A DNA stretch of 64,000 bases, taken from a virus. Within the stretch, counting starts at the first letter, position 1. Every line of letters begins with the position of its first letter. The stretch is from IMG/VR virus record IMGVR_UViG_3300036770_002122, positions 1 through 64,000 of that record, one strand, 5' to 3'. The notes below the pieces were generated by a model, which ran no database searches, had not been told where the DNA came from, and saw only the letters and a program-made list of their open reading frames with translations. This document shows positions 8,641 through 38,343 of the stretch, one piece after another. Made by a program: the position numbers and the translations under genes.

Positions 8641-9486
8641 ATGCCAACATTTGGATCAGGACTTACAATAGGCGCGGGAATTACATTTACTGCTCCGCCA
8701 CAATACTTATTATCAATAACACCATCTGGACAAAGTTCCTACACTTGGGACATGCAGCAAGATGGCCCTCTAACTCTATCTACCGCAAATACATATGATA
8801 TTGTTCCTGGTTCAAATATTACGATGACTACTAAAATGTGGGGAGCAGGTGGAAACGATGATAATGCAGGTGCCGGTGGTGCATCTGTAGGAACTATTAG
8901 TTTTGTAGCAGGCATAACCTACAAATTTGTAGTGGGATCGAAAATTTTGGGAGCAGCCAGCAGTTCACCATCAAAGGCAGCCTCAGGTCAATATAGTGGT
9001 ATCTTTACTACAAGTATACTACAAGCAAATGCAATTATAATGGCAGGCGGTGGAGGTGGTGTTGGATATTCTGTCGGTTGGGCAGATAGTGCAGGTGGTG
9101 CAGGCGGTGGACTCACAGGCGGTGGCGGTGCCGGAGGCGGTGCCGGAGGTGGTGGTGGTACACAATCAGCCGGCGGTGCTAGAGGAGCTTTTGTTGATTT
9201 TAATTGCTACGGTAACACAGGTCAGGCATTACTTGGCGGTAACCCATTTTTTTGCGGCGATTGGGGTGGTGCTGGTGGCGGTGGCTATTGGGGTGGTGGT
9301 AGCGCAGCAGGCGTTAACAATTATCCAGGCGGTGGCGGCGGCGGATCAGGATACATTCATCCTTCACTAGTAAGCAACGGAACATTGTATGGTGGAAGCG
9401 GCACAACTCCGGGCTTAGTTGCAGATCCTCTTAGAGGAAATTCAGGAAGTCCTCTGTACGACGGAAAAATTTATTTGACTCTATAA
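8641..9486 (+). CDS. Glycine-rich adhesin-like protein, type A copy 1
   Basis: A 281-residue protein with a β-rich N-terminal part (about 1-125, containing YTWDMQQDGPLTL) and a C-terminal part dominated by glycine runs separated by single aromatic or Asn/Ser residues (GGGYWGGGS, GGGGGGSGYIH). Such runs pack as polyglycine-II bundles in the receptor-binding tips of some T-even phages. Closely related in layout to the gene at 10839, which shares WDxQxDGPLxL and the GSGY ending. The start follows the upstream stop by 1 nt. Probably a fibre tip or decoration protein. Confidence 0.6.
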   Translation: MPTFGSGLTIGAGITFTAPPQYLLSITPSGQSSYTWDMQQDGPLTLSTANTYDIVPGSNITMTTKMWGAGGNDDNAGAGGASVGTISFVAGITYKFVVGSKILGAASSSPSKAASGQYSGIFTTSILQANAIIMAGGGGGVGYSVGWADSAGGAGGGLTGGGGAGGGAGGGGGTQSAGGARGAFVDFNCYGNTGQALLGGNPFFCGDWGGAGGGGYWGGGSAAGVNNYPGGGGGGSGYIHPSLVSNGTLYGGSGTTPGLVADPLRGNSGSPLYDGKIYLTL

Positions 9487-9506
9487 CATTTTAAAGGAAT
9501 ATTATC

Positions 9507-10451
9507 ATGCCAATATTTTCAGGTGTAACATTTAGCGGCGGCGGCTTTCAAATAGAGGCTCCCCCTACTGCACTTCTAGTTGACTACCTAGCAGTTGCCG
9601 GCGGTGGTGGCGGTGGTGGCGGACAAGATATAGGTGTAGGCCAACAAGCCTCAGGCGGCGGCGGTGGCGGTGGTGGCTTTTTAACAGGTTCGGGCATAGA
9701 ACTGACTTTTGGAGAAACATATATTGTAACAATAGGCGCAGGTGGAAATGCTGGGACATCGCCTGCCTATCAACCAGGCACTGCTGGCAGTCAAGGATCA
9801 AACACATCAATATCAGGAAGTTTAGTATCTATAACTAGTTATGGCGGTGGTGGCGGTGGTGGTGGATACCAATATGGAAGCGCAGACAGAACTGGCGGTA
9901 ACGGTGGTTCAGGTGGCGGTGGTGGATATACTAATACTGGCACTGGTGTCAGTAGTTCCGGCGGATATGGTGTTTACCCTGCAAGTCCTTATATCAACGC
10001 AGCAAGACAAGGTTATGATGGATCGGCTGCTCCCGGCGTCAACGCCCGCGGCGGCGGCGGTGGTGGCGCAGGAACTCCCCGCTCTAGAACGACATATGAA
10101 AATACCGGAGCCGATGGCCTTTATTCAACATTATCAGGGGCTAATGTAGCATATGCCGGTGGCGGTGGTGGTGGCGGAGATGCGTATGGCGGAGCAGGTG
10201 GTGCAGGTGGTGTAGGTGGAGGTGGTACCGGCGGCACTGGAGGCGGCGGTGTATCAGCGGGCACTGCTAATTTAGGTGGTGGCGGTGGCGGAGGTATGAG
10301 AAATGTCGGTGGTAATGGCGGATCAGGCGTTGTAATAATTAGTTGTCCCGATTCTGTGGCACTAGCAACAACTACAGGTAGTCCAACTGTCACAACATCA
10401 GGCGGATATCGCATTTACGAATTTACAGGTTCAGGTTCAATCACATTCTAA
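9507..10451 (+). CDS. Glycine-rich adhesin-like protein, type B copy 1
   Basis: A 314-residue protein starting MPIFSGVTFSGGG, then VDYLAVAGGGGGGGG, many polyglycine runs, and a C-terminal GGYRIYEFTGSGSITF strand cap. The VDYLxVAGGGGGG block and the C-terminal VVIISCP…GYRIY pattern match the glycine-rich domain family common in aquatic phage fibres. A near-identical layout recurs at 11762. AAAGGA precedes the start. Likely an adhesin or tail-fibre tip; the receptor is unknown. Confidence 0.6.
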   Translation: MPIFSGVTFSGGGFQIEAPPTALLVDYLAVAGGGGGGGGQDIGVGQQASGGGGGGGGFLTGSGIELTFGETYIVTIGAGGNAGTSPAYQPGTAGSQGSNTSISGSLVSITSYGGGGGGGGYQYGSADRTGGNGGSGGGGGYTNTGTGVSSSGGYGVYPASPYINAARQGYDGSAAPGVNARGGGGGGAGTPRSRTTYENTGADGLYSTLSGANVAYAGGGGGGGDAYGGAGGAGGVGGGGTGGTGGGGVSAGTANLGGGGGGGMRNVGGNGGSGVVIISCPDSVALATTTGSPTVTTSGGYRIYEFTGSGSITF

Positions 10452-10471
10452 AAATTAGAGGATAGTAGAAA

Positions 10472-10834
10472 ATGGCACATTTTGCAAAATTAGATAGTAA
10501 CAATGTAGTTACAGAAGTAATCGTAGTTCACAATAACGAACTACTTGATAATGGTGTAGAGAGCGAAGCAAAAGGCATTGCTTTCTGCCAAAGTTTGTTT
10601 GGTGGTAACTGGAAACAAACCAGTTATAATGCTACTATGCGCAAGCACTTTGCAGGCATAGGTTTTACTTATGATCAAGGTCTTGACGCATTTATTCCAC
10701 CAAAACCATATAACAGTTGGGTATTGAATACAACAACTTGTTTATGGGAAGCCCCGACTCCAATGCCGTCTGACGGTAAGGTATACAGTTGGGATGAAGC
10801 AACAACTAGTTGGGTAGAAGTACAAGTAGGATAA
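10472..10834 (+). CDS. Small conserved phage protein near fibre genes
   Basis: A 120-residue protein starting MAHFAKLDSNNVVTEVIVV, with CQSLFGGNWKQTSYN and tryptophan-rich ends. Proteins of this type recur beside tail-fibre genes in T4-like marine phages. Their function is not established; a fibre-associated or chaperone role is plausible from position between two glycine-rich gene pairs. AGAGGA precedes the start. Confidence 0.6.
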   Translation: MAHFAKLDSNNVVTEVIVVHNNELLDNGVESEAKGIAFCQSLFGGNWKQTSYNATMRKHFAGIGFTYDQGLDAFIPPKPYNSWVLNTTTCLWEAPTPMPSDGKVYSWDEATTSWVEVQVG

Positions 10835-10838
10835 AAAA

Positions 10839-11741
10839 ATGCCAATGATAGAAGCCGCTACAATCGACGGTGGAATTAATATAGAAGCCCCGGTATTCTA
10901 CTCATTCAACATCAGCCCGTCTGTATCAGGTAAAAGTGTATGGGATCTACAAGCAGATGGGCCCCTTAGTCTAACTACACAAGGCACGTGGACTATTACA
11001 CCAGTTAGTTCATTGAGTGCAAACGTCAAAATATGGGGCGCAGGTGGCGGAAGCTCAACAGGTACCAATGGCGGCGGAGGCGGTGCGGCTACAGCAGAAA
11101 TACTATTCGATGAAACAAAAACTTATACACTAATTGTTGGTAGTACAGGTAATGCTGGCGGAGTATATACAGGTTCAGGCGGTGGTGCAGGTACTGGCAT
11201 CAACAACGGCGTTACTCATATTCTTATTGCAGGTGGCGGTGGCGGTAGTTTAGGCGGTACCGGCGGCGGTGGCGGCGGTACTGCCGGTGAAGCAGGTGGA
11301 CGCGACTTCAATGACGGGTTCGGCGGCGGCGGCGGCACACAATCATCAGCAGGTGGCGGTGGTGCTGGTAGAAGCGGAAGAAACGGCGCTTCCGGCACTG
11401 GTCCGGGAAGTCTAACAGGTGGTAATGGTGGCGACGGTGGTAACCTAGACGGATATATAAACGGCGGCACTGGTTATGGCAATGGCGGTAGGGGCGGTAC
11501 TAGAAATGGTGATGCCGGCGGTAGTGGCGGCGGCGGCGGCTATTATGGCGGCGGCGGCGGAGGTGTAGGTGGCTCAGGTGGTGGTGGTGGTGGCGGTGGA
11601 TCCGGCTATGTCAATACATCACTTACAACAAATGGAACTATCTATTCAGCCACTGGAGGTACACCAGGTAATAATAGTGATGCTGCACGCGGTACAGCAG
11701 GCAATCCAGGAACAGCCGGAAAGATTTACATATCTATATAA
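10839..11741 (+). CDS. Glycine-rich adhesin-like protein, type A copy 2
   Basis: A 300-residue paralogue of the product at 8641. It shares the N-terminal WDLQADGPLSLTTQGTWTI block, an AxVKIWGAGGG transition and a glycine-rich C-terminal half ending in SGYVNTSL and a GKIYISI strand. Polyglycine runs are interrupted by Tyr, Asn and Thr, which would point outward from a polyglycine-II bundle and could contact the receptor. Part of the duplicated A-B layout. Confidence 0.6.
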   Translation: MPMIEAATIDGGINIEAPVFYSFNISPSVSGKSVWDLQADGPLSLTTQGTWTITPVSSLSANVKIWGAGGGSSTGTNGGGGGAATAEILFDETKTYTLIVGSTGNAGGVYTGSGGGAGTGINNGVTHILIAGGGGGSLGGTGGGGGGTAGEAGGRDFNDGFGGGGGTQSSAGGGGAGRSGRNGASGTGPGSLTGGNGGDGGNLDGYINGGTGYGNGGRGGTRNGDAGGSGGGGGYYGGGGGGVGGSGGGGGGGGSGYVNTSLTTNGTIYSATGGTPGNNSDAARGTAGNPGTAGKIYISI

Positions 11742-11761
11742 AATATAAAAGGAAATAATAA

Positions 11762-12652
11762 ATGCCAATCATATCAGGTGTAACAATTAGCGGTGGCGGT
11801 GTAGATATAACTGCACCCCCTCCTCCATCCGTTACGGTAGACTATTTAGTAGTAGCCGGCGGTGGAAGTGGTGGTGGTGGATATTCCGGTGGCGGCGGTG
11901 GCGCCGGCGGATTTAGAACGAATAGTAATGTATCTTTGTCTACGGGATTAATTTACACAGTTACAGTTGGTGCTGGAGGTGCAGGCAACCTAAAACAGGG
12001 ATCATCAGGCAGTAGTTCAGTTTTTGACACAATTACCTCAGCTGGTGGCGGTGCCGGCGGATCAAATTATGAGCCTGGGCCAAGTCATGCAAATGCTAAA
12101 AGCGGTGGATCAGGGGGAGGCGAGCATCGTCGTGCAGATGTGCTGCCAGGAGGCGCAGGTAACACTCCATCTGTGAGCCCATCTCAAGGCAATAACGGTG
12201 GAAAAAACAATGGTGCAAATGCAACAGGAGGTGGCGGTGGTGCTGGAGCAGCTGGCGCAAATGGAATTGCCAGTGCCTCTGGCGCTGGTGGTGCAGGTGC
12301 ATCATCAAGTCTTTCTGGATCGGCTGTAACTTATGCTGGTGGTGGCGGTGGCGGCGGTGGATATAATAATGGTGCACCACGCGGTCTTGGTGGATCAGGC
12401 GGTGGTGGCAACGGAGGACCAGAAAACAATTCTGGTTCAAATGGAACAACCAATACTGGTGGTGGTGGTGGTGGCTGCGGATTTAACCTATCTGCCAGTG
12501 CAAATGGTGGTTCAGGCGGCAGCGGCATAGTAATTATACGTTACTCTGATAACCAACCAGCAGCCACATCAACTACCGGCAGCCCAACTATTACTGTAAC
12601 CGGCGGTTATCGCATTTATAAGTTTACAGGTTCCGGGTCAATCACTTTCTAA
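11762..12652 (+). CDS. Glycine-rich adhesin-like protein, type B copy 2
   Basis: A 296-residue paralogue of the product at 9507, with the same opening (MPIISGVTISGGG), VDYLVVAGGG block, VVIIR strand and GGYRIYKFTGSGSITF ending. The middle differs, with other spacings between glycine runs. AAGGAA precedes ATG 11762. It closes the adhesin block before the replication genes. Confidence 0.6.
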   Translation: MPIISGVTISGGGVDITAPPPPSVTVDYLVVAGGGSGGGGYSGGGGGAGGFRTNSNVSLSTGLIYTVTVGAGGAGNLKQGSSGSSSVFDTITSAGGGAGGSNYEPGPSHANAKSGGSGGGEHRRADVLPGGAGNTPSVSPSQGNNGGKNNGANATGGGGGAGAAGANGIASASGAGGAGASSSLSGSAVTYAGGGGGGGGYNNGAPRGLGGSGGGGNGGPENNSGSNGTTNTGGGGGGCGFNLSASANGGSGGSGIVIIRYSDNQPAATSTTGSPTITVTGGYRIYKFTGSGSITF

Positions 12653-12700
12653 AAACGCAAAATATAATAATTTTATTCTCCCAATACAGGTATAAGTATA

Positions 12701-12728
12701 TTGACATACTGTGATATTCGTGTAGACT
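12701..12728 (+). promoter_or_regulatory. Host-type promoter for gene 32
   Basis: TTGACA (12701-12706), 16 bp, TAGACT (12723-12728). The predicted start near 12735 leaves a leader of about 80 nt before ATG 12817. A long dyad overlaps both elements. Confidence 0.5.
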
Positions 12729-12740
12729 ATCATAGTATGT
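12704..12740 (+). promoter_or_regulatory. 13-bp dyad over the gene 32 promoter
   Basis: Arms 12704-12716 and 12728-12740 pair over 13 positions with one G·U, around an 11-nt loop. In DNA it spans the promoter and could be an operator. In read-through RNA it would be a strong hairpin. Confidence 0.55.
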
Positions 12741-12741
12741 T

Positions 12742-12760
12742 AGTTGTCTCCTAGACAACT
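12742..12760 (+). promoter_or_regulatory. 8-bp hairpin in the gene 32 leader
   Basis: AGTTGTCT (12742-12749) and AGACAACT (12753-12760) pair perfectly around loop CCT. The segment TCTCCT (12747-12752) is complementary to the ribosome site AGGAGA (12804-12809), so the hairpin and an anti-Shine-Dalgarno pairing would compete. Confidence 0.55.
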
Positions 12761-12816
12761 CAACATAAAACACATTTAGGCTCAACATAGGCATTTTTAC
12801 AATAGGAGATTATATT

Positions 12817-13803
12817 ATGGCAAGTCTAGCAGATATCCGTGCCCGTCTCGCGGCACAAGAAAGTAAGAAATCAAATCAGGGTCAACGTACTCAATCAGAT
12901 AACGCAATCTATCCACACTGGAATATGGAAGAAGGCACAACTGCCACTATCCGTTTTCTTCCAGACGCAAATAGTTCAAATACATTTTTCTGGGTAGAAC
13001 GTCAGATCATCAAGTTACCATTCAATGGTGTCAAGGGTGATCCAAATATGAAACAAGTAGTTGTACAAGTTCCATGCGTAGAAATGTATGGTGACAATTG
13101 TCCTATCTTGGCAGAAGTTCGTCCTTGGTATAAAGATGAAACTCTCAAAGAAATGGCTAACAAGTATTGGAAGAAGCGCAGTTATTTGTTTCAAGGTTTT
13201 GTTCGTCAGAACCCAATTGGTAATGACACAACTCCTGCAAATCCAATTCGTCGTTTCGTTATTAGCCCACAAATTTTCACTATCATCAAGTCAAGTTTGA
13301 TGGATCCTGATATGGAAAACATCCCAACTGATTACTTGAATGGTACTGATTTCAACGTCAAAAAGACTAGCAAGGGCGGTTATGCTGATTACTCAACTAG
13401 TAACTGGGCACGTAAAGAAAGCCCACTAACTGAAGCAGAGCAGGCTGCTATTGAAGCACATGGTCTATTCAATCTTGCTGACTTTTTACCCAAGAAGCCC
13501 AGTGAAAGTGAATTGCGTGTTATCAAAGAAATGTTTGAGGCTTCAGTAGATGGTAAGCCTTATGATAATGATAAGTGGGGCGCATATTATCGCCCGTATG
13601 GTCTTGAGGCTCCTACTGGTGCATCAGTACCCCCTCACGTAACTGAAACTTCAACATTAACTGTTTCTGCTAAAAAGCCAGTTGTTGAAGATGAAGAACC
13701 AGTAGAATCAAAGAGTGAACCCGTAGTTGTTCCTAAGAGTACTTCTAGCGATAAGGCACAGGACATTTTAGCGATGATCCGTGCTAGACAGCAGAAGGGC
13801 TAA
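12817..13803 (+). CDS. 32: Single-stranded DNA-binding protein gp32
   Basis: A 328-residue gp32-type protein that coats ssDNA in replication and recombination. The EGTTATIRFLPD strand near residue 40 matches the core OB-fold region of T4 gp32, and the basic N-terminus (SLADIRARLAAQESKK) matches the cooperativity arm. In T4 a Zn site uses C77, H64, C87 and C90; here only a CVEMYGDNC pair is visible, followed by PIL rather than PxC, so the Zn site looks incomplete. The C-terminus is acidic before a basic DILAMIRARQQ end. Ribosome site AGGAGA. It leads the block that contains uvsX and uvsY. Confidence 0.85.
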   Translation: MASLADIRARLAAQESKKSNQGQRTQSDNAIYPHWNMEEGTTATIRFLPDANSSNTFFWVERQIIKLPFNGVKGDPNMKQVVVQVPCVEMYGDNCPILAEVRPWYKDETLKEMANKYWKKRSYLFQGFVRQNPIGNDTTPANPIRRFVISPQIFTIIKSSLMDPDMENIPTDYLNGTDFNVKKTSKGGYADYSTSNWARKESPLTEAEQAAIEAHGLFNLADFLPKKPSESELRVIKEMFEASVDGKPYDNDKWGAYYRPYGLEAPTGASVPPHVTETSTLTVSAKKPVVEDEEPVESKSEPVVVPKSTSSDKAQDILAMIRARQQKG

Positions 13804-13811
13804 TAAAGTTT

Positions 13812-13833
13812 GGGGAGAGAGATATCTCTCCCC
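13812..13833 (+). terminator. Hairpin after gene 32
   Basis: GGGGAGAGA and TCTCTCCCC form a 9-bp stem with loop GATA, 8 nt after the gp32 stop. No T run follows, so it may be an RNA-stabilising or attenuating hairpin rather than an intrinsic terminator. Confidence 0.5.
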
Positions 13834-14102: not shown

Positions 14103-15161
14103 GTGGCTAAACCATTTGATGTTAGTAAATTTAGAAAAGATATTACCAAGAGTATTGAAGGTCTCAGCATTGGTTTCAATGATCCTACTGATTGGATCAG
14201 TACCGGTAACCACGCTCTCAATTATCTTATTAGCGGAGACTTTAACAAAGGAGTCCCTCTAGGTAAGGTAACTGTATTTGCAGGTGAATCAGGTTCAGGC
14301 AAATCATACATTTGTTCTGGTAATCTTGTTCGTCACGCACAACAGCAAGGCATTTTCGTAGTATTGGTTGATACTGAAAACGCACTTGATGAAGATTGGT
14401 TGAAGGCACTTGGTGTTGATACCAGCGAAGATAAGTTGTTGAAACTAAACATGGCAATGATTGATGACGTTGCTAAGACTATTAGTGAGTTCATGAAAAA
14501 TTATAAACTTTTACCAGCAGACGATAAGCCGAAGGTATTGTTTATCATTGACAGTCTTGGCATGTTGTTGACTCCAACTGATGTCAATCAGTTTGAAGCA
14601 GGTGATATGAAGGGTGACATGGGTCGTAAGCCTAAGGCACTCACTAGTCTTGTTCGCAATTGTGTCAATATGTTTGGATCACATAACGTCGGTCTAGTCG
14701 CAACTAATCACACTTATGCTTCACAAGATATGTTTGATCCAGATGACAAGATCAGTGGTGGTCAAGGCTTCATCTATGCTTCAAGTATTGTTGTTGCTAT
14801 GAAGAAACTCAAACTCAAGGAAGATGATGAAGGTAACAAGATCAGCGAAGTACGTGGTATTCGTAGTGCCTGTAAGGTAATGAAAACACGTTACGCAAAG
14901 CCATTTGAAAGTGTTCAAGTCAAGATTCCTTATGAGACTGGTATGAATCCTTACAGCGGTTTGCTTGATCTATTTGAGAAGGCAAATATTTTGACGAAGG
15001 AAGGTAATCGTCTTGTCTACACAACTGATAGTGGCGAAGTTATCAAATTCTTCCGCAAAGGTTGGGAAAGCAATGAAGATGGTTGTCTCGACAAAGTAAT
15101 GTCAGAATATCAAAACCGTCAAACAAAGATAAGTAATACAAATTCTGTTGTGGAGGAATAA
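14103..15161 (+). CDS. uvsX: RecA-like recombinase UvsX
   Basis: A 352-residue strand-exchange protein. Walker A GESGSGKS (61-68), a VDTENALDEDW segment, a KVLFIIDSLGML Walker B strand and a DNA-binding loop region (GGQGFIYASSIVV) match T4 UvsX. It loads on gp32-coated ssDNA with UvsY. The start is GTG 14103, preceded by a near-perfect ribosome site AAGGAGG (14092-14098). UvsY is two genes downstream, so the recombination pair is kept together. Confidence 0.93.
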   Translation: MAKPFDVSKFRKDITKSIEGLSIGFNDPTDWISTGNHALNYLISGDFNKGVPLGKVTVFAGESGSGKSYICSGNLVRHAQQQGIFVVLVDTENALDEDWLKALGVDTSEDKLLKLNMAMIDDVAKTISEFMKNYKLLPADDKPKVLFIIDSLGMLLTPTDVNQFEAGDMKGDMGRKPKALTSLVRNCVNMFGSHNVGLVATNHTYASQDMFDPDDKISGGQGFIYASSIVVAMKKLKLKEDDEGNKISEVRGIRSACKVMKTRYAKPFESVQVKIPYETGMNPYSGLLDLFEKANILTKEGNRLVYTTDSGEVIKFFRKGWESNEDGCLDKVMSEYQNRQTKISNTNSVVEE

Positions 15162-31897: not shown

Positions 31898-31905
31898 CAT
31901 AAATA
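31898..31905 (+). promoter_or_regulatory. T4-type late promoter
   Basis: CATAAATA upstream of the structural gene at 31952. The 40-nt leader holds a UACG-loop hairpin and GGAG. Confidence 0.65.
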
Positions 31906-31912
31906 ATAGTAT

Positions 31913-31928
31913 GAGCCTTACGAGGTTC
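31913..31928 (+). promoter_or_regulatory. Leader hairpin with UACG tetraloop
   Basis: GAGCCT and AGGTTC pair over 6 positions (one G·U) around TACG, a UNCG-type loop, at the 5' end of the predicted late mRNA. Confidence 0.45.
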
Positions 31929-31951
31929 AACACAACACGGAGATTTAAAAA

Positions 31952-32341
31952 ATGGCACAATTTACAAAAGTCAATGGCGACTTTCAACAGGTATTACACT
32001 TAGACGCACCAGAATATACAAATGCTGGTCTAAATGCTGTAAATTCAGGTAAGACAGTTCAGCCACAAGGTCCAAAATTGGACTTCGGTACAATCACATT
32101 CACAGGCGCAGCATCACCAACTGGTGCAGACCTAGCAATTGCTTTCCAAACAATTCAGCAATTAGCAACAGTTTACTTGTATGAGTACACTGAAGTAGGT
32201 GCAAACACTGATACACTAGCAGTTGCAGTATATCCAGTAGGCGCATGGGATTTCACTAACGGTGGTGATCTAGATGCCGCTTTAACAGCAGCCCTAGGCT
32301 ATGCTGTAACTACAGCAGCAACAGCAACTTTCACTAACTAA
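31952..32341 (+). CDS. Small, probably abundant virion protein
   Basis: A 129-residue protein starting MAQFTKVNGDFQQVLHLDAP, with GKTVQPQGPKLDF. This opening is shared by an abundant structural protein of T4-like cyanophages. It has its own late promoter, a structured leader, a good ribosome site (GGAG) and a strong terminator right after it, all fitting high expression. Head decoration or tail role not resolved. Confidence 0.65.
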   Translation: MAQFTKVNGDFQQVLHLDAPEYTNAGLNAVNSGKTVQPQGPKLDFGTITFTGAASPTGADLAIAFQTIQQLATVYLYEYTEVGANTDTLAVAVYPVGAWDFTNGGDLDAALTAALGYAVTTAATATFTN

Positions 32342-35440: not shown

Positions 35441-35448
35441 CATAAATA
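35441..35448 (+). promoter_or_regulatory. T4-type late promoter
   Basis: CATAAATA 26 nt before ATG 35475; its last base starts the left arm of the hairpin at 35448-35474. Confidence 0.65.
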
Positions 35449-35474
35449 GTTGTAATACCGGTGTAAGTACAACT
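35448..35474 (+). promoter_or_regulatory. Hairpin between late promoter and start codon
   Basis: AGTTGTA (35448-35454) and TACAACT (35468-35474) pair perfectly. The right arm touches ATG 35475. A late transcript starting near 35454 would lose the left arm, whereas a read-through transcript would form the hairpin. Confidence 0.55.
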
Positions 35475-36812
35475 ATGTCTATTATACAGATTTCTAAAAT
35501 TCAGCAACGTTATGGTGAGTTAGTCGATCTCCCACAACTAGATCAAGCAGAGTTTGGTTTTGCAGCAGACGTAAATCGTTTGTTTATTGGCAAAACTACA
35601 GGCAACACAGAAAATGTTGAAGTTTTAACTGCCTATAGCGATATTGCATTTAGTCAATTAGACGGTGCTGGTAATACCAATTTAAATATCACTGATAGTA
35701 CTTTAGCCAATGGTCAAGTATTAGTATACGACGGTGATAATTGGGTTAATCGCGGCGGGGACGCCGGCGGATATATTAATTTAGGTAGTGTAAGCAATGT
35801 CGCTATTCAAGGTGGCGGCATTAATTATGTGCTTACTACTGATGGTACTGGTAATTTAAGTTGGACTCCTAAAGCGTTTGTTACAGCAAACATTGCTAAT
35901 ATTACTAATGCCAACCCTGGCGTTGTTACTACAGCAGAAGATATCTTTCTAACTAATGGATCCGAAGTTACAATTACAAGTGTCACTGGTATGACGCAAG
36001 TAAACGGTAATTCATATTTTATAGGAAATTTAACTAGCAATTCTTTCGCTCTATATTCTGATATTACTTTAACAAGTCCGGTTGATACTACGCTATTTGG
36101 GTCATATGTATCCGGTGGTATTATAACTTGTGCTCCGGGAGGTAGTGAAGGTTCGGCAAACGCAGCAGGGGTAACTACCTCTGTTCAATTCAATACCAAT
36201 AACTTATTAGATGCTAGCGCAAGTTTTACATTTAATAAAACTACAAACAATTTGACAGTAAGTCCGGGTAATATTATTGTTGGAAATAATATATCAGTGG
36301 GCGGCACTGCAAATATTACAAACTTAAATGTAAGTGGCCCGACAGTCACCACCTCAATCACGACCGGTGACCCATCAACACCAGGTACTATTACTGGTAA
36401 TTGGACATTAACATCGGGATCAAGATTAGAATCAACATACGCTGACTTAGCAGAGTACTATTGCGCTGATAAGAATTACCCAGCCGGCACTGTTTTGGCA
36501 TTTGGTGGCGAACAAGAAGTTACATTAGCAGGTATTGAAACAAATAAAGTTGCTGGTGTGGTATCAGCCGACCCTGCTTATGTAATGAATGGTATGATAC
36601 AATGTGAACATCCTGTAACTATAGCATTACAAGGTCGCGTACCATGTAAAGTAAAAGGCAAAGTTTATAAAGGTGATATGATGGTAAGTGCCGGTGACGG
36701 CTTTGCAAAAGCAGCAATTTCAGAACCTAAAATGGGCACAGTTATAGGCAAAGCATTACAAAACTTTGAAGGTGAAGAAGGTATAATCGAAGTAGTCGTT
36801 GGAAGACTATAA
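35475..36812 (+). CDS. Tail fibre-like protein
   Basis: A 445-residue protein. The N-terminal part (LVDLPQLDQAEFGFAADVNRLFIG) matches the tropism-determinant-type N-domain that anchors fibres. The middle is β-repeat. The C-terminal SRLESTYADLAEYYCADKNYP, then GTVLAFGG and VAGVVSADPAYVMN, match a domain frequent at the ends of phage fibres. No Ser-Lys autocleavage motif was recognised. Late promoter. Host-receptor or baseplate-fibre role inferred. Confidence 0.7.
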   Translation: MSIIQISKIQQRYGELVDLPQLDQAEFGFAADVNRLFIGKTTGNTENVEVLTAYSDIAFSQLDGAGNTNLNITDSTLANGQVLVYDGDNWVNRGGDAGGYINLGSVSNVAIQGGGINYVLTTDGTGNLSWTPKAFVTANIANITNANPGVVTTAEDIFLTNGSEVTITSVTGMTQVNGNSYFIGNLTSNSFALYSDITLTSPVDTTLFGSYVSGGIITCAPGGSEGSANAAGVTTSVQFNTNNLLDASASFTFNKTTNNLTVSPGNIIVGNNISVGGTANITNLNVSGPTVTTSITTGDPSTPGTITGNWTLTSGSRLESTYADLAEYYCADKNYPAGTVLAFGGEQEVTLAGIETNKVAGVVSADPAYVMNGMIQCEHPVTIALQGRVPCKVKGKVYKGDMMVSAGDGFAKAAISEPKMGTVIGKALQNFEGEEGIIEVVVGRL

Positions 36813-37124: not shown

Positions 37125-37132
37125 GATAAATA
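37125..37132 (+). promoter_or_regulatory. T4-type late promoter
   Basis: GATAAATA 86 nt before ATG 37219, the longest late leader in the window. Confidence 0.65.
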
Positions 37133-37141
37133 TAACATATT

Positions 37142-37195
37142 CATAACGTTGTTGTTATGAGTTTATGCGGTTCCCGCCGCGTACCGGCTAGAACC
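37142..37195 (+). promoter_or_regulatory. Two hairpins in a long late leader
   Basis: Hairpin 1: CATAAC (37142-37147) with GTTATG (37154-37159). Hairpin 2: outer GGTTC (37169-37173) with GAACC (37191-37195), inner GCCG (37176-37179) with CGGC (37185-37188). GC-rich against an AT-rich background. TAGGAG follows before ATG 37219. Confidence 0.5.
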
Positions 37196-37218
37196 CGGCA
37201 TTATAGGAGAAACAAACA

Positions 37219-38343
37219 ATGGGTCGTCCACTTAAAATCGCAAAAGCCCAAGCAGTCGTAACTATCACAGATACAACTACAGGCACAAATCTAGTAACTA
37301 CAAATGCTAACTTTACTAACTTAGGTATCATTGCAGGTATGCCATTCATCCCAGCAAGTAATATCGGTAATTTAGTTGCAGGTACTACATACTGGATTCT
37401 ATCAGTTGTGAATGCAGGCAACAATAGCACATTTACTGTTTCAGCAACACAACTTTCAGCCAATCCAACATATACTGAATTTGCACTTGCAACTGCATCT
37501 GGTACTGTTTCAGCATCAGTTGGTGTTGTTGACGCATATTTTAACAATCCAATTGGCGGCGCAGGTTATCCAGCAACTAACGCAAATACATATGGCGTAG
37601 TTGGTGGTAACACAGCAATCTATGGTAGTCAAGTATTAGTTGGTGTATGCATGGGTATATCAGGTACTGGTACAATCACAGTAGCAGACGACAGTCCAAA
37701 CATCGACGGTGTTGGCACAGACTTTGCAAACACATTCGTTGACGGTACAATCGTATATGACGTTGATGGTAACATTCTTGGTACTATCGATGACATCGCA
37801 AACGCAAACGCAGTATTCGCTACATTCGCAGCAAATGCTAGTGCAAACGTATCAGGCGGTGCATATACTTATGGTACACCAGAAGCAGGCTTTATCGTTC
37901 GTCAGAAAGGTAAAACAAAGTATCTAGTAACAGGCACAACATCAGGTCTAACTCAGGCTTGCTATACAGCAAATGTTGCTAACACAGCATTAGGTCCTAA
38001 TACATTTAATATCACTGCAACTTATGCCGACACTTCAACAGCATATGTTCAATCATTAAGTGATTACAATAGTGAAGTATTCCCAGCAACTGTGGCTGCT
38101 TCAGCATTGGTAGCAGGTACTGTTTACACTATTGAGTTTGCAGGTGACACGGATTGGACAGCAGTTGGCGCATTTGCTAACATGACTGGTATCACATTCG
38201 TTGCCACTGGTGCTGGCACAGGTACAGGTACAGCAGTATTGTCAAATGTTGATCCTGATGTAATTGCATCATTCAACAGCGCAGTTGCAGCAAACACTGC
38301 AAATGGATTGTTGAACCCTGTTGTAACTATTACTAACGCTTAA
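37219..38343 (+). CDS. Virion structural protein
   Basis: A 374-residue Thr/Ala/Val-rich β-protein starting MGRPLKIAKAQAVVTITD. Repeated TxTT.N..TN strands and a central GTGTITVADDSPNIDGVGTDF block suggest stacked β-domains, as in fibre or head-decoration proteins. TAGGAG ribosome site and a long structured late leader suggest abundant expression. No enzyme motif. Confidence 0.6.
   Translation: MGRPLKIAKAQAVVTITDTTTGTNLVTTNANFTNLGIIAGMPFIPASNIGNLVAGTTYWILSVVNAGNNSTFTVSATQLSANPTYTEFALATASGTVSASVGVVDAYFNNPIGGAGYPATNANTYGVVGGNTAIYGSQVLVGVCMGISGTGTITVADDSPNIDGVGTDFANTFVDGTIVYDVDGNILGTIDDIANANAVFATFAANASANVSGGAYTYGTPEAGFIVRQKGKTKYLVTGTTSGLTQACYTANVANTALGPNTFNITATYADTSTAYVQSLSDYNSEVFPATVAASALVAGTVYTIEFAGDTDWTAVGAFANMTGITFVATGAGTGTGTAVLSNVDPDVIASFNSAVAANTANGLLNPVVTITNA

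Follow-up and report, generated by a model that had tools for sequence, protein, structure and literature searches.

A structured two-promoter leader before gene 32 of a T4-related jumbo phage and its relatives, a candidate site of T4-like control

Self-repression by gp32 is a textbook case of translational autoregulation. In phage T4, gp32 binds to a pseudoknot at the 5′ end of the leader, spreads over an open tract and blocks initiation (PMC3014915), the plan of the leader being that of a 5′ structure followed by an unstructured tract that reaches the ribosome site (PMC3014915, PMC535899). The T4-type pseudoknot is perhaps the only viral example, RB49 is devoid of it, and diverse relatives need study (PMC3014915).

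The window considered here is a stretch of 64,000 nucleotides of viral DNA (positions 1 to 64,000 of IMG/VR record IMGVR_UViG_3300036770_002122). The original prediction, made from the sequence of this window, had taken the open reading frame at 12817–13803 (+ strand) for gene 32, and this identity was borne out by the match of its 328-residue product to phrog_1192 (E 3.2e-65), accompanied by a match to phrog_224 (E 1.9e-9) and by a PF08804 (gp32) score of 26.3 bits, just under the 26.8 cut-off. Downstream of gene 32, uvsX (RecA family) is located at 14103. Gene 32 of the window encodes a gp32-type single-stranded-DNA-binding protein (SSB) of a T4-related jumbo phage, and its cultured relatives are jumbo phages: PA5oct-like (53% identity), Atu_ph07 (51%) and Rak2/GAP32/CBB-like (~45%). 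Just upstream of gene 32, at 8641–12652, there is a run of glycine-rich repeat proteins of ~280–314 amino acids, of which the one tested matches phrog_2295, a family of unknown function. Directly after the gene, at 13812–13833, there is a strong palindrome (GGGGAGAGATATCTCTCTCCCC in the − strand reading) followed by T-rich − strand DNA, which is terminator-like. The comparisons were run with 326 leaders, 210 of them distinct, obtained from five IMG/VR scans and thirteen cultured records. They were classified as group 1 (the clade of the window, with GUUGUCUCC in the hairpin HP1 described below), group 2 (its sister clade) and other families.

The structured stretch located 5′ of gene 32 is, as judged from sequence comparison, almost certainly a real control region. 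Positions 12701–12860 fold at −46.2 kcal/mol, versus −30.4 ± 3.8 for shuffled sequences (z −4.2), and none of 200 shuffles was as stable. The layout formed by a late promoter, a sigma70 promoter within a dyad, HP1 and an A-rich tract recurs across the 326 relatives, and it is this comparison that establishes the hairpins with their conservation, the arrangement of the promoters as motifs, and the gene specificity. Only gene 32 is preceded by this leader. A covariance model built from the group-2 leader gave one strong match per group-2 genome (E 1e-15 to 5e-20), always before gene 32, while the next matches were at noise level in genomes that included a 364-kb record. In the record that contains the window (93 kb), the group-1 motif GTTGTCTCC occurs a single time. 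With the Rfam 15 families there was no match above the gathering score, the best ones being at chance level.

Two overlapping promoters, both on the + strand, mark the beginning of the leader. One of them, not noticed in the original prediction, is a T4-late-type promoter (TATAAGTA, 12691–12698), recognized by its ATAAATA motif, by the layout found in the relatives and by the gp55-type sigma. The window contains 19 copies of ATAAATA (18 on the + strand), most of which precede the starts of virion genes by a few tens of bases, and a gp55-type late sigma is present in seven of eight relative records. The two marks of T4-type late promoters, a TATAAATA-like box whose distance is fixed and a gp55-type sigma, are thus found together, the start sites being predicted ones. 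According to the T4 late rule, the promoter box ends at −6, and the late start would be located at ~12703–12704, i.e., at the G or A of TTGACA, in the first bases of the dyad. ATAAATA has already been predicted as a late promoter in CBB and GAP32 (PMC5259590). The other promoter is of the sigma70 type, TTGACA-16-TAGACT (12701–12728), with boxes at 12701–12706 and 12723–12728 and a 16-nt spacer; in most relatives the spacing is 17 nt and the −10 box is TATAAT or TATACT. Its start is predicted at ~12734–12736, just 5′ of HP1. The late box lies 2–4 nt 5′ of the sigma70 TTG in 31 of 35 group-1 leaders and in 81 of 82 group-2 leaders. A promoter pattern of fixed spacing, scanned over the relative genomes, gave one exact match, because the spacing varies. 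Elsewhere in the window, at 824–864 and 35442–35475, the dyads CTCTCATA..TATGAGAG and AGTTGTA..TACAACT start at the late box itself, 5′ of the predicted start.

A dyad of 13 bp had been claimed to cover the promoter, and it is indeed present. It occupies 12702–12742 (+ strand), with 16-nt arms at 12704–12719 and 12725–12740 that are 88% complementary (12/13 in the first 13 positions), and it spans both sigma70 boxes, TTGACA and TAGACT. In 80 distinct dyads, the inner arms formed 380 Watson–Crick pairs, versus 242 ± 11 when the 3′ arms were swapped between phages. In alignment A2, changes on both sides were seen in 14 of 18 pairs, with a covariation score of 0.363 versus 0.149 ± 0.012, and the double-change cells amounted to 144 versus 53 ± 5 in the control. 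In all families, significant folding starts at the predicted late start (87–96% of leaders with z < −1.5), the first paired base being at +0 to +1; in leaders such as L105, L107 and L113 the hairpin begins at the late start as well, with the sigma70 boxes located downstream of it. As the predicted late start coincides with the beginning of the dyad, the preferred reading of the dyad is a putative hairpin at the 5′ terminus of the late transcript, in which the sigma70 promoter is contained. This match with the late start was another feature that the original prediction overlooked.

Concerning other late promoters, a comparable hairpin was found at 2 of the 15 other intergenic ones of the window, and on this ground the idea of a 5′ hairpin on all late transcripts was rejected. 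The wider control set of late promoters from other loci amounted to 9 leaders only. Two late-type promoters of the window with longer leaders (37126–37219 and 31899–31952) display strong hairpins (z −4.4 and −3.0, respectively) near the predicted start, and a hairpin may be a common beginning of the long late leaders in this phage. In other families, five leaders (L117, L125, L127, L136 and L155) contain a GCGC-rich hairpin at the late start and, after it, a T-run (AAAGCGCA...TGCGCTTTTTCTTTT), ~100–130 nt before gene 32. This combination is intrinsic-terminator-like, and attenuation in the late gene 32 leader is possible.

The 8-bp hairpin that had been said to follow the dyad was also found. 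HP1, AGTTGTCT-CCT-AGACAACT, is located at 12742–12760 (+ strand), near the 5′ end of the predicted sigma70 transcript, with 8/8 pairs formed. Among 61 aligned leaders of group 2, where HP1 occurs as 41 sequence variants, 100% of the cells were paired and 5/8 pairs were changed on both sides. In the variable HP1 stems, all the 240 cells tested were Watson–Crick or G-U; the exceptions being G-U and never A-C, they carry the signature of an RNA of the + strand. The letters of HP1 are nearly invariant in group 1, which places it beyond covariation testing there. In group 2 a third covarying hairpin, HP2, absent from the original prediction, is located 10–15 nt 5′ of the Shine-Dalgarno sequence (SD), with double changes in 3/4 pairs and the variants GAGA-CCA-UCUC, GACA-CCA-UGUC, GACU-CCA-AGUC and AAGA-CCA-UCUU. 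Considered jointly, HP1 and HP2 of group 2 gave a covariation score of 0.396, versus 0.156 ± 0.011 when shuffled, and the structures slid along the group-2 alignment were at most 60% paired. The original prediction had made itself dependent on pairing being conserved in relatives, and the covariation of the dyad, HP1 and HP2 shows such conservation strongly. An extension of HP1 was predicted in which 12737–12742 pairs with 12762–12767 if the upstream arm of the dyad is not transcribed; in group 1 its energy was −5.75, versus −2.8 ± 0.3 with shuffled arms. As a conserved stem, the extended HP1 was rejected, as it could not be separated from swapped partners and is absent in group 2.

After HP1 comes an A-rich, weakly folding tract (12761–12802, + strand), with UAGGC repeats at 12777–12781 and 12788–12792, which leads to the SD AGGAGA (12804–12809, + strand), recognized by sequence and conserved in relatives. 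The post-HP1 tracts contain 46–48% A and ~71–76% A/T, and their mean folding energies of −1.5 and −2.3 kcal/mol over ~50 nt equal those of shuffles (z ~0). The AUG is paired with nearby sequence in the predicted fold of the window itself (P unpaired ~0.01), and in group 1 it is predicted to be partly paired with the coding sequence (P unpaired 0.15). The openness claimed for the A/U-rich rest of the leader applies to the tract only, which folds weakly but to the same degree as shuffles, the AUG being predicted to be paired. The two copies of CTCAACATA that had been pointed out exist, at 12759 and 12781, but conservation within the clade is restricted to the second copy; the first one falls in the extended HP1 stem. 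More generally, SD-like direct repeats (UAGGC, CUAAUAUAGG, ACAUGGC) occur in group 1 and other families at three times the shuffled level, and [AU]GGC appears 1.9 times per leader versus 0.5 in shuffles. The leaders of group 2 are without direct repeats and have HP2 in their place. In two leaders (L178 and L133), the 60 nt that precede the start codon are almost entirely made of tandem repeats of ~10–11 nt (ACTAACATCG and CTAATATAGG), the last of which contains the SD; their spacing is close to the gp32 site size.

By analogy with T4, about an even chance can be given to the interpretation that this is a gene-32-specific two-promoter leader for autogenous repression of the T4 kind plus 5′-end protection. 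From the elements described, we infer the start sites, the binding of gp32 to the leader, the repression and the protection. Early and in the middle of infection, the host-type polymerase would start at ~12735 and the leader would begin with HP1; at late times, the start would be directed to ~12703 by a gp55-type sigma, and the leader would consist of the long dyad hairpin and then HP1. Both mRNAs would thus offer a 5′ helix followed by the A-rich, weakly folding tract that runs into the ribosome site. Surplus gp32 would nucleate at the 5′ structure, spread over the open tract and block ribosome loading, and the paired 5′ end would also shield gene 32 mRNA. The self-repression from the leader put forward in the original prediction agrees with the T4 plan of a 5′ structure and an A-rich tract and with the gene 32 specificity of the leader, but no pseudoknot is conserved in groups 1 and 2. 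It seems rather unlikely that the presence of the sigma70 promoter inside a self-complementary stem makes the choice of start site an RNA switch. If it did, the downstream arm of the dyad (UAUGUUAG) would pair upstream in the late transcript, HP1 staying short, while in the sigma70 transcript, of which it would form the 5′ end, this arm would pair with AACAUA past HP1 to give a long sealed hairpin. In that case, gp32 or nucleases would meet different targets on the two leaders at different infection times.

The hairpins could also be 5′-end stabilisers only, a paired 5′ end slowing pyrophosphate removal and RNase E entry with no autoregulation, which is a possible explanation if not a probable one. 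What is conserved is a helix at or beside each predicted 5′ end, with freely changing stem letters, so in this explanation it is pairing rather than sequence that is needed; mere stabilisation of the message together with efficient initiation would account for a 5′ hairpin and an A-rich leader, too, and no T4 message is more stable than that of gene 32 (PMC3014915). However, end protection requires neither the near-invariance of HP1 in group 1 nor an HP2 placed 10–15 nt before the SD, and such hairpins are missing from most of the window's other late promoters, the leader being confined to gene 32. Taking the dyad as a DNA operator, on which a repressor bound to the palindrome would shut off the sigma70 promoter, would agree with its extension from the −35 box to the start site, but it is quite improbable. 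Apart from the promoter boxes, hardly any sequence is common to the 80 distinct dyads, which would not be so if one repressor bound them all. The G-U:A-C ratio of the inner arms (91:52) equals that of the arm-swapped control (100:59), so it does not single out RNA; it was discarded as proof of RNA in the dyad and is uninformative between the DNA and RNA readings. It is the position that favours the RNA reading, since the fold is at the late start in all families, including leaders of the L105/L107/L113 type, in which the sigma70 boxes come after the hairpin.

An anti-SD switch, with the UCUCC of HP1 pairing with GGAGA to hide the ribosome site and gp32 or another factor picking the fold, had been suggested by the complementarity of TCTCCTA (12747–12753, + strand) to TAGGAGA (12803–12809), which is 7/7 in the window. 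UCUCC is invariant in 35 group-1 leaders despite varying loop length, and the loop-to-downstream energy is −6.2, versus −3.75 ± 0.26 with shuffled loops; there is no SD-loop covariation, because neither side varies. On the other hand, group 2 shares the layout but has no UCUCC, and in one leader (L207) the SD is changed to GGAAA with UCUCC retained. In the nested fold, forcing this pairing costs 7.6–13 kcal/mol, with a probability of at most 0.0002. As a general mechanism it was therefore rejected in view of the sister clade, and as an explanation of the window leader it is hardly likely. The pseudoknot supposed to form between the loop CCT and AGG did not hold up either: it is not conserved, the loop being UCCG in most relatives, and most group-1 leaders can form only CC:GG pairing with AGG. 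In group 2, loop-to-downstream pairing equalled that of swapped and shuffled loops, with no signal of a pseudoknot or kissing loop, and no H-type pseudoknot is conserved as the 5′ element in groups 1 and 2. As a single case in a culturable phage, the leader of Pseudomonas phage PA5oct (L083) plausibly holds an H-type pseudoknot, with a AGTTTTGC/GCAAAACT stem ~30–80 nt before gene 32 and a loop AACCC facing a downstream GGGTT.

Compared with other known systems, the window leader resembles the gene 43 operator hairpin of T4/RB69 in that a replication protein would, by analogy, be under autogenous control via a leader hairpin, but the gene 43 loop is recognised by DNA polymerase, whereas the loops of the window differ and precede an SSB gene. 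With the leaders of T4 gene e and I-TevI it shares that the RNA fold would be set by the promoter at which the transcript started. In those cases it is in the early transcript, the longer of the two, that the ribosome site is hidden, the late one being open, whereas here the longer transcript is the late one, and the 5′ hairpin that it would add leaves the ribosome site uncovered. The clear covariation, the hundreds of jumbo-phage gene 32 loci and the culturable relatives make it testable whether the control was ancestral, re-invented or replaced, and the leader also gives a handle on how a sequence-unspecific protein selects its own message. No sequence similarity to the T4/RB69 gene 32 operator was seen. 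T4 has an H-type pseudoknot and UUAA(A) repeats, while the leaders described here have simple hairpins, either UAGGC repeats resembling the SD or a mini-hairpin, and a late promoter that overlaps a sigma70 one. Both precede a gp32-type SSB gene with leaders of similar length, in which a 5′ structured element is followed by an A/U-rich tract with short repeats up to the SD.
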